Shown piece after piece: positions 55,376-58,680 of a DNA stretch of 64,000 nt. This DNA is from Owenia fusiformis (taxonomy: Eukaryota > Annelida > Polychaeta > Sabellida > Oweniidae): positions 26,590,166-26,654,165 of the forward strand of contig CAIIXF020000011.1 in NCBI GenBank assembly GCA_903813345.2, given 5' to 3'. Under the pieces are notes generated by a model that searched no databases, was not told the DNA's origin, and was given only the letters and a program-made list of their open reading frames with translations. The position numbers and the translations under genes were made by a program. Numbering within the stretch: the first letter of the stretch is position 1; every line of letters begins with the position of its first letter.

Positions 55376-56559
55376 CTTGTAGCTAGACATAAAGCTGGTC
55401 ATGCGATATGAAAATAACCAATCAAGCACATTCAGTAGCAAAGCATTGTGGGCCATACATGCTTCAGAATTGCAATCTAACTTAAGAAAGATTACACCAA
55501 AATCAATTCAACTTTATAGGAATTAAAGGCTTCATACATCAGAAACTTCAAGACAATATTGATCAGAACATCTAAAGCTCATTCACTACAACCTGTATCT
55601 TTTATAAATAAACATTGATGATACACTGACTGTATTCTTATTCTTATGTTTGATCTTTGGAAGCCATGCTTAGCAGAAAAACCATGGGAGTAAATGGGAG
55701 AATAAGTACTGGTAATTGGGACTAATACTTCCATATATTGGCATATATGGGGACGTGCCGCTAAAATAGGTCCCTTCATGTGGTTCTCCTTTTTTTAATA
55801 AAAACCCCTTTTTCCTGATATACCTAGATGTGGGTGATAATTTTTATAATCACACTAAACATGTTTGACAGCCAAGGTTGACGATTTTTTCCCTGAATTC
55901 CCAGGAAAATCTTAAAGAATATAACTCCCTTAACTGCTCCTGATCCTTGAATCCTGTATTGTTTCTGAAAAAATCCCTAGAAGTGGGTCTATGTTTGAAA
56001 GAAAAACCCAAAATATGGGTCCACTTTTTGAATAAAAGCGTTATTGGACTTTAAAGAGAAGTGAAGGTAATCCACAAATATACCCATTGCATGGAATAGG
56101 TTATTTTCTTTGGTATAATGAAACATTTGAGCTAAAAAATGATGTGTGGTGTTTTCTAAAGATTTTTATGAGCATGCTCCCCCAAGCTGGACAAATATTT
56201 TGATGACCATCCGTGTTATTTGGTGATCTTTAAATCATTATGAGCTGGGACAATGGCATTCTACTACAGTACCAGTCAGGATTTTAGAACATGTAATCTT
56301 ATATGAAAAACAGACAAAATTTTAAACTCCTAATGAAACAATTAACAGGAAAGAATAAGATTATGATATTTAACATGGCAACTCATCCTTCTAAGTCAGA
56401 ATGAGACAGTATGAAAATGTGATGAGTATAACTGTTGAATATAGAGATCTTAATACAGTAATACACTTTACATTGTAATTAGAAACCCTCTCTGCTATAC
56501 AAGATATCCAGATCACTGGGGATGAACTGGAAACGAGGGAGGTTTTGCCTCGTATCAAA

Positions 56560-57146
56560 ATGGCGGCGCGTGAAAAAATTTCATTCGGTAAGATTTTTGT
56601 TTTTTACAATTTTCGTGCTTTTATCCTTCAAATTAAAACTTAATATTTGGCAAGTAAATAGTTCATAAGTTCCGGTTTTATAATATGATTACAAATTAGA
56701 AATCAATACAGACATTGCTGAGCTATTTACATTTCAATTCTCTCACTTAAGAAACGAGGCATGTTTCTCAAGGAAACGAGGCAACTATATAGCATTCTTA
56801 AGAATGAAACGAGGCAACCATATTTAATTAAAAATGTTTTGTTTTTATTACAGTACGGGGCCTACAAAAAGAAGCGTCCCTGTTCAAATGCTATTTCTGT
56901 AACACAGGAAACGACAACGTTGCTGATATTGTATTCCATATGATGCAACAGCATGATGGTAATCTCTCTGTACGGAAACGAACGTTAGATGAGAAAACAG
57001 GTTCATTTGTATACACTTCTCATCATTTTGGCTTTGCCATTGAACGTGTAAGAACGCTTAAGAAGGAAGGGCATATTGTGATGATAAATTCTGATATGCA
57101 GTTGAGAATAAAACGACGGATCGAGAGAGAATCAAGTAAATACTAA
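56560..57146 (+). CDS. Single C2H2 zinc-finger protein encoded by element C
   Basis: Exon 1 (56560-56587) lies inside the left terminal repeat and reads MAAREKISF plus one base, followed by GTAAGAT. Exon 2 (56854-57146) follows a T-rich tract and CAG and joins in phase, giving 106 residues. One zinc finger is visible: C22-x2-C25-x12-H38-x4-H43 (KCYFC to QQHDG). After it come a basic stretch (SVRKRTLDE), an aromatic YTSHHFGF segment and an Arg/Lys-rich C-terminus (LRIKRRIERES). DNA binding is likely, perhaps to the element's own GAAACGAGGCA repeats. An alternative end exists: donor after 57135 and acceptor at 57484 would swap the last two codons for 14 others ending at 57528. The ATG sits in CAAAATGGCGGC, a perfect YY1-type start-site motif, so promoter and start may coincide. 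I do not recognise the family. Confidence 0.6.
56751..56816 (+). repeat. Subterminal GAAACGAGGCA cluster, left
   Basis: Three direct copies of GAAACGAGGC start at 56751, 56773 and 56806, just inside the arm. Related words AAACGAGG (56531) and CCTCGT (56548) flank the mini-exon. These are plausible protein-binding sites. Confidence 0.7.
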
Positions 57147-58372
57147 CAGTTTGATTGTGTTTTGTTGGATAGCAACTGAGTTTCTATATGGTATGCCTTT
57201 GGGCGAATGTTCCTCTTTATAAAGGCGCACATGAGTGTTCATTTCCTTTTAACTGATGTCGCAAAACTTGTAAATGTTTTATACTTGATCGCAAATGGAG
57301 TTATGAATTGCCAGAAATGTAAAATTATTTTGACTACCCTGTACGAGGTATGCATATAAGGAGTTATTAATGTGCCCTAAACCAGGGTCCCTCTACATCC
57401 CGCTCTACATGTACATGTAGCAGTATAAGCTGCTATCAGATATATTCTTTATAGTAATGGCATTTTCTTTATTTTCATTTTCAGGTGTAAACATCTCAAA
57501 TTCTGATTTTGTAAATGAGCAGTTGTAAAGTTGCAGCAAAGAAAAGTCTAACTGTACCAATTTAGTTAAGCTACATGTTTTTAAGGACAGAAAATGTCAA
57601 TGCACTTCACTCGATTCATTCTTTGCTGCAGCTTAAAATTCATGCTAAGGATCGGAGTTATACTGTTTTATGTTTTAAATATTTCGAAAACGTTAAATAG
57701 CATTGCTTTGAGTGTCAATTCCAATAAACGAGCCAGCTATCCGAGCTATCAATGGTAGCGCATATATCGTCAAAATGTTCTCTCAAATAAGAAAAATCTC
57801 GTTCAAAGAAGTGTTATTTTAATAGGGAGCGTAAGCTACACGTATTTTAGAAATGGCGAACGTAAACGTGAAATGACCCCTGGGAACTATAGTTCCGTTC
57901 TGGATAGACTTATACAAAGACCCAACTAAAACAGTTTAACTGATACCTTTGTAATCATTCATGCAAATAAAGACGTTGAAGACAAGAACTAGTTCTCTGA
58001 AGATTGCAATTTTACACGTTTACGTACACTTCTCTTTAAAACATATGTCGTTAAACCTCCCTATACTAATCGTACGCAAATGGGGTATTGCTGTTGCTCG
58101 AGATGGCTATATTTGATAGAATATAATTCCAGATACGATAAAAAACGAATGACCATGGTAATAATTAAATGACTCGCCTATATTACTATATTCATCCATG
58201 TTGTCTTGCTCTGAAAGATAAATGACCAATGTAGCGCTTTATGAACAATATGGTTATTCTTTTTAACTCTTACATATATAATCATGTATATCGTGTAAAA
58301 CGTAATCGGTCGTATGTGACCAGAACGGTGGAAATAAGATCATTAAATGTAGACACTACACTAAAGAATAGT

Positions 58373-58440
58373 TGCCTCGTTGCAAGTCAAACATTGCCTC
58401 GTTTCATTGTTACAAAATGTAGACAGGTGCCTCGTTTCCT
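58373..58440 (-). repeat. Subterminal GAAACGAGGCA cluster, right
   Basis: Inverted copies at about 58373, 58394 and 58428 (TTGCCTCGT on the plus strand), mirroring the left cluster. Confidence 0.7.
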
Positions 58441-58601
58441 AAGTGAGAGAATTGAAATGTAAATATCTCAGCAATGTCTGTATTGATTTCTAATTTGCAA
58501 TCATATTATAAAACCGGAACTTATAAACTATTTACTTGCCAAATATTAAGTTTTAATTTGAAGGATAAAAGCACGAAAATTGTAAAAAACAAAAATCTTA
58601 C

Positions 58602-58629
58602 CGAATGAAATTTTTTCACACGCCGCCAT
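58602..58629 (-). other. Mini-exon in right arm of element C
   Basis: ATGGCGGCG start and TTC-G end with the GTAAGAT donor, as in the left arm; one Arg codon (CGT) reads Cys (TGT). No minus-strand zinc-finger exon follows, so this copy has nothing to splice to within the element. Confidence 0.55.
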
Positions 58630-58680
58630 TTTGATACGAGGCTAAACCTCCCTCGTTTCCAGTTCATCCCCAGTGCAGAT

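Follow-up and report, generated by a model that had tools for sequence, protein, structure and literature searches.

A terminal repeat with a predicted promoter and first coding exon in a CACTG-ended DNA transposon of Owenia fusiformis

ProtoRAG has a CAC terminus, P elements make 8-bp target-site duplications, and MuDR and Mutator-like elements make 9-bp duplications. To our knowledge, no coding first exon has been found within Mutator-like terminal repeats. The terminal repeats of ProtoRAG, the lancelet RAG transposon, are described as promoters in both directions that are bound by YY1, which is repressing there (PMC7481187). MuDR and Mutator-like elements are described as having long terminal repeats with promoters and transposase-binding sites (PMC3310237). 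For the P element, the account cited here gives 31-bp terminal repeats, a THAP domain (i.e., a zinc-coordinating N-terminal DNA-binding domain), binding sites beside the terminal repeats, and internally deleted copies that can encode a short DNA-binding protein (PMC7776569). ISL2EU, of the PHIS superfamily, is a eukaryotic DNA transposon described with a YqaJ domain in an ORF separate from its THAP/DDE transposase and with 2-bp AT duplications (PMC4482050).

Here we describe an element within a 64-kb window, the whole stretch of 64,000 nucleotides of Owenia fusiformis DNA that was analysed. Its family (family 1) and a diverged family 2 make 5-bp duplications, which is the ProtoRAG/Transib length and differs from the 8 bp of P elements and the 2-bp AT of ISL2EU; a YqaJ domain, as known from ISL2EU, is present in relatives L028 and L029. 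ProtoRAG resembles these families in its 5-bp duplications and in the YY1 motif GCCATCTTG of its repeat, which is present in reverse, as CAAGATGGC, in the family-2 start site (PMC7481187). Unlike ProtoRAG, the families described here carry a start codon and first coding exon within the repeat of both arms, and the large proteins have an N-terminal C2H2 finger and a YqaJ domain instead, with no RAG-like match by sequence. A zinc-coordinating N-terminal domain, predicted binding sites near the ends, and internally deleted copies that could encode a short DNA-binding-type protein are shared with the P element, and long terminal repeats with MuDR, with promoter and binding sites predicted in the window element. 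Repeats that act as promoters are thus already known from Mutator and ProtoRAG; the additional feature here is a coding first exon with its donor in both arms.

Anatomy and copies of the window element

The initial annotation had recognised an inverted-repeat element at 56514-58675 with a start exon in each arm, and our data bear this out (Table 1). The arms are 96% complementary over 255 nt, the element begins with CACTGGGGAT and ends with ATCCCCAGTG, and CAGAT flanks it on both sides. Both arms contain CAAAATGGCGGC, an open 28-nt exon 1 and a GTAAGAT donor. That start codon, first exon and donor lie within the arm and join the finger exon in phase also agrees with the sequence, since the 56587/56854 junction is in phase in the left arm and the acceptor ATTACAG precedes 56854. 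The predicted product comprises 106 aa with intron 2 retained and 117 aa with intron 2 spliced. Among the frames listed, we found no convincing minus-strand frame for a gene driven by the right arm.

Table 1. Features of the CACTG-ended element and its flanks, in window positions
Feature	Position	Strand	Description
Whole element	56514..58675	+	2,162 bp; derived by internal deletion from a DNA transposon with CACTG ends, based on terminal repeats and copies elsewhere
Left target-site duplication	56509..56513		CAGAT
Right target-site duplication	58676..58680		CAGAT
Left terminal inverted repeat	56514..56768	+	255 nt
Right terminal inverted repeat	58421..58675	-	255 nt; carries mirrored exon 1
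Exon 1	56560..56587	+	28 nt (MAAREKISF plus one base); ATG within YY1-like AANATGGCGGC; followed by donor GTAAGAT
Mirrored exon 1, right arm	58602..58629	-	ATG and donor intact; no partner exon identified
Exon 2	56854..57135	+	C2H2 finger C-x2-C-x12-H-x4-H, then basic region
Intron 2	57136..57484	+	contains stop codon of unspliced finger frame; acceptor placed from exon 3 of sister copies
Exon 3 remnant	57485..57523	+	first 39 nt of exon 3, then deletion junction
Outer inverted pair of ACGAGG sites, left arm	56533..56553	both	directly 5' of ATG
Inner left array	56754..56814	+	three ACGAGG sites, steps 22 and 33 bp
Inner right array	58375..58435	-	three ACGAGG sites, steps 33 and 22 bp
Outer inverted pair, right arm	58636..58656	both	ACGAGG sites

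A genome search with one arm and intron 1 gave 273 candidates, 40 of which were scored, all 40 at an identity of at least 97%. Exon 1 together with its donor has 131 genomic matches with at most two mismatches (69 forward and 62 reverse), compared to none for a reversed control. When left ends of family 1 were aligned, the ATG was present in 15 of 16 and the exon-1 donor in all 16. Nine family-1 copies had both flanks read: six have exact 5-bp duplications (CAGAT, CTTAA, CACTG, TATAT, CGCGG, and AACTG), two have duplications with one mismatch (CTATT/ATATT in C8 and TATGA/CATGA in C12), and in the C434 copy no target duplication was found. The copy L015 has two right ends, 648 bp apart (6562 and 7210); its duplication was read from the outer one, which alone matches the left duplication. 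A tandem array with a unit of approximately 146 bp, each unit containing CAAGATGGCGGC, lies inside the element copies L015 and L019.

The C5 copy (L035) matches the window element from end to end (97.0%) and has its own duplication, CTTAA, which indicates movement of the deleted form after its origin. The window element has the properties of a non-autonomous cut-and-paste element, namely terminal inverted repeats, a mostly constant 5-bp duplication, and loss of most parental coding sequence (exon 3 is cut after 39 nt and the large exon is absent). We also observed that the whole or most of 57598-58186 is inverted relative to L002-L006 and L016; an internal inversion has therefore occurred in family 1.

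The parental gene

The element had been annotated as a self-contained unit with a complete finger gene. Our data do not support this, since the stop codon of the finger frame lies within intron 2 and is thus not the end of the parental gene. The intron-2 donor, GTAAATA (after 57135), is present in nine of the ten copies that span exon 2, while L016 has GTATTCA. All 98 exon-3 query residues are found in the sister copies C434 and C3 and also in C8 (with one in-frame stop), 82 residues are found in C9, and pieces are found elsewhere. These data indicate that the finger is the predicted exon 2 of a longer parental gene, of which the window copy is an internal-deletion derivative. The four finger ligands are invariant in five aligned relatives; the window finger scores 18.1 against Pfam zf-C2H2_2, under the cut-off of 26.9, and the AlphaFold model of the finger exon is of low confidence (mean pLDDT 51.5).

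Further parts of the gene are found in the C12 copy, which is approximately 41 kb long and has other mobile elements inside. Its left end and finger exon are in L017 and its exon 3 is in L032 (86% identity over 57 residues, one stop), while in L031 a frame of 204 aa, which shares 40% identity with residues 11-231 of the large L024 frame, runs straight into a family-1 right end, with one stop in the longer match. A search with 189 residues of the L031 piece found no second family-1 copy of the large exon (the next best match was L024, 41%), and no complete family-1 parent was found in the sequence searched; the full gene is therefore reconstructed by combining one fragment of the large exon with a diverged relative. 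The diverged relative, L024 (G000:C11:19848800-19858700), contains exon 1, the finger exon (38% identical to that of family 1), an exon-3 homologue (55%), a frame of 1,221 aa, and additional short exons. No right terminal repeat was found in approximately 9 kb downstream of the large frame, so only the left end of L024 supports the layout described below, and L024 may be an immobile or domesticated copy. The 1,221-aa frame of this gene (L024 and L040) is uninterrupted. In IMG/VR, seven stretches fit the pattern for a relative of this frame and none was confirmed.

The exons downstream of the finger also bear on the proposal, raised in the initial annotation, that the gene was captured; in this reading, a finger exon from a host C2H2 gene would have been trapped behind the exon of the arm. 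Weak matches to host C2H2 genes (including L013 and L014) would fit such an origin. However, exon 3 in the sister copies and the large-frame piece inside the C12 copy continue the gene, the region 3' of the finger is conserved together with the finger, and in both family 2 and L024 the same finger exon follows exon 1 with phase and position unchanged. We regard capture as exceedingly improbable. The host C2H2 sources considered, C8:38067665 (L013) and C7:2726275 (L014), were rejected as long multi-finger frames with other surrounding sequence.

Diverged large frames with a YqaJ-like region, each approximately 30% identical to L024, are present at L028, L029, L030, and L033 (up to 1,467 aa). 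L028 (1,438 aa) and L029 (1,467 aa) exceed the Pfam YqaJ cut-off of 22 with 35.7 and 26.5 bits, respectively, and three of the five members of the large-protein family match YqaJ; the YqaJ-like region of L024 has no Pfam match. This region was aligned in five rows, two of which are incomplete; its E, D, E-x-K, and Q positions do not vary, and we take these to be the catalytic residues of YqaJ-type nucleases. The C-terminal region contains a D-x-x-H, a pattern known from the RNase H core of P elements, that is invariant in five relatives, and has no Pfam or solved-structure match by sequence (0 matches for its profile at E up to 10). By sequence, the L024 large protein likewise matched no solved structure, and the YqaJ-like profile gave only two weak unrelated matches. 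No exon-bearing CACTG end was found in the few hundred bases upstream of L028 and L029. We consider the large protein a putative transposase. Since a YqaJ nuclease occurs here with no recognised transposase domain, the large proteins may represent a so far unclassified catalytic type.

A literature search for a transposon with YqaJ, a zinc finger and terminal inverted repeats found nothing, the repeat databases Repbase and Dfam being outside its scope. It is conceivable, although we lean somewhat against it, that these elements form an undescribed animal transposon superfamily with CACTG ends, 5-bp duplications, and a giant protein that joins a C2H2 finger to a YqaJ-type nuclease and an RNase-H-like region. 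In such a superfamily the repeats would combine a docking array, a YY1-type promoter and the first coding exon, and end binding would control both movement and expression.

Exon-bearing ends and motif arrays in diverged lineages

In family 2 (L020 and L036-L039), which starts with CACTGGTGATCC, two motifs form a palindrome ahead of CAAGATGGCTGC; next come an exon of 28 nt whose donor is in phase 1, intron 1 with further motifs, and the finger exon. At the left end of L024, CACTGCTACC and a palindromic pair precede ATGGCGGAA, after which come an exon of 31 nt whose donor is likewise in phase 1, the TACACNGACG motifs, and the finger exon. A CACTG terminus, an inverted motif pair 5' of the ATG, a phase-1 donor, and inner motif arrays at matching offsets are therefore common to family 1, family 2 and the left end of L024, while the fingers of these diverged lineages are only 33-40% identical and the exon-1 peptides differ. 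On this comparison, the exon-bearing layout is older than family 1. That diverged lineages have such an end in common makes the observation more interesting than could be known from the window on which the initial annotation was based.

We read 17 family-2 arms (9 left and 8 right-type) and found the ATG in all 17, GT in 16, and GTAAGA in 13. Exact 5-bp duplications flank five of six family-2 end pairs (AATTA, GTAAG, ATAAA, TGAAT, and ATCTG), and the sixth has a 6-bp duplication, AAGCTT. The AG expected just 5' of the finger exon is missing in L020, L036, and L037, so these copies may not splice there. Directly 3' of the finger exon, L020 contains a palindromic stretch (L020:4501-4592), as do L036 and L037. 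Short elements of approximately 0.5 kb were also observed, with 59-bp family-2 ends that terminate at the start codon region or shortly before it (e.g., C6:11151795 / 11152328).

We asked whether the ATG, donor and open frame of the arm could be present by chance and without a role, with the arm conserved purely as a transposition signal. Variation within family 1 is compatible with this, since exon 1 (0.67%) varies more than the arm upstream of the ATG (0.28%) and the remaining surrounding arm varies by 0.52%; we therefore rejected exon-1 conservation as proof of coding. The mirrored exon, for which no partner exon was identified, points in the same direction. However, family 1, family 2, and L024 all have an ATG set in a YY1-like site, an exon of 28-31 nt followed by a donor in phase 1, and a finger exon joined in phase, while their exon-1 peptides differ. 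Together with the near-invariance of ATG and GT in the family-2 arms, this makes chance a very unlikely account of the exon.

The initial annotation had noted about ten copies of a motif near the ends. We counted 10 ACGAGG sites near the element ends, 1 inside the element, and 6 elsewhere, i.e., 17 in 64 kb compared to 6.4 expected. AAACGAGG has seven matches in the 64-kb window, all seven inside the element (0.73 expected), and AANATGGCGGC has two, one per arm (0.02 expected from shuffles). Plus-strand ACGAGG sites are at 20, 241, 263, and 296 in left-type arms of family 1 and at 20, 241, 274, and 296 in right-type arms, with a minus-strand site at 35 in both. We compared 26 family-1 arms, a count that omits eight loci repeating others and any arm with different bases in the first 17 (the left arms of C434 and L027). 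Of these, 13 have the left set and 6 the right set; in another 3 the right set is displaced by 1 bp (L023, L027, and L034), and the remaining 4 match neither set (L017, L031, and the right arm of each of L019 and L026). The motifs occur independently of the finger-coding exon, whereas the initial annotation had anticipated an enrichment in copies that encode the protein: the left arms of L002-L006, which have no complete finger exon, carry all five sites.

The array is far beyond chance and recurs at matching positions in the two other lineages. The corresponding motifs are at 25, 246, 268, and 302 in L024 and at 34, 254, and 309 in family 2 (L039, left), which corresponds to offsets from family 1 of 5, 5, 5, and 6 and of 14, 13, and 13, respectively. 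L024 contains four TACACNGACG motifs in 9.9 kb (0.04 expected), all four between its end and the finger exon. The motifs differ from family to family and have an ACG core in common, and the inner steps of 22, 33, and 55 bp are multiples of 11, about one helical turn. In our reading, a single protein would contact the ACGAGG-type motifs along one face of the DNA. When inner sites were placed at random, the family-1 geometry was matched in 12 of 1,000,000 trials for L024 and in 831 of 1,000,000 for family 2; since the positions were picked after looking and families 2 and 3 share an intron block before the first inner site, kept ancestry rather than independent origin is the fair reading of these values. 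The introns of family 1, family 2, and L024 are themselves weakly alike (z 1.4 to 2.4), so the matched motif positions may in part reflect shared descent.

Predicted activity of the ends and selection on the finger exon

We consider it quite probable that the locus as a whole is best explained as a deleted copy of a transposon whose terminal repeat is at once promoter region and first exon and whose large protein binds the ends. Since only 46 bp lie 5' of the ATG, transcription of the parent would start within these 46 bp, near the YY1-like site that overlaps the ATG, or outside the element. AANATGGCG fits the YY1 motif quoted for ProtoRAG, and YY1 sites downstream of the start are described as common in mammalian ribosomal-protein genes (PMC554972). 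Exon 1 of the parent would be spliced to the finger exon, followed by exon 3, which is acidic, and by one of very large size, and the finger exon would encode the N-terminal part of the large protein, the putative transposase whose relatives have a YqaJ-type nuclease domain.

We infer that the motifs are binding sites of this protein, which would bind, probably via its finger, to ACGA-core motifs in both arms, i.e., the inverted pair at the start site and the array approximately 220 bp inward. Binding would join the ends for transposition and could also shut off transcription; a motif pair at the likely start site makes such self-repression plausible. The terminal repeat would then combine the roles of promoter, first exon and docking array. 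The conserved geometry (a start-site pair, an array approximately 220 bp inward, and steps of 22/33 or 55 bp) predicts how the protein is placed on the ends. Furthermore, each end would be a mobile cassette of promoter and exon, which a rearrangement could fuse to new exons. The window copy keeps the ends, the sites and the first two exons and could thus be moved in trans; if expressed, it would yield no more than a fragment of 106 or 117 aa, a possible competitor of the full protein.

Purifying selection on the finger exon, for which the initial annotation had proposed a search, was not detectable in 33 distinct changes from 16 copies, a sample small enough to be compatible with weak selection. 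Across exons 1 and 2, 23 of the 33 changes alter or stop the protein, compared to a neutral expectation of 24.9 (sd 2.4; P of at most 23 such changes, 0.28). Exon 2 is spanned by ten copies, five of which have an open frame (the window, C5, L015, L012, and L017, which has no ATG) and five a broken one (L016, L018, L019, L026, and L027). L002 and L006, a further two of the 16, have a stop within the part of exon 2 that they keep.

These data also bear on whether the finger-only form has been kept by selection as a repressor, a small protein that binds the ends and blocks transposition or transcription. The retention of a DNA-binding-type exon alongside motif sites and the open finger frames of both the window and C5 copies are in line with this, and there is a precedent in the small non-autonomous P copies described as encoding the 207-aa KP repressor (PMC7776569). 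On the other hand, half of the copies that span exon 2 have a broken frame, the fraction of protein-altering changes is close to the neutral value, and the window and C5 copies differ in exons 1 and 2 mainly by amino-acid changes. A selected repressor is therefore unlikely, and we favor the reading of the window copy as a non-autonomous deletion derivative. The deletion junction of the window element is found at only three genomic places, one of which (L034) has no visible finger exon. L034 (G000:C11:26656600-26661400) is a partial copy that lies approximately 9 kb from the window element in the opposite orientation and is possibly the result of a local jump.
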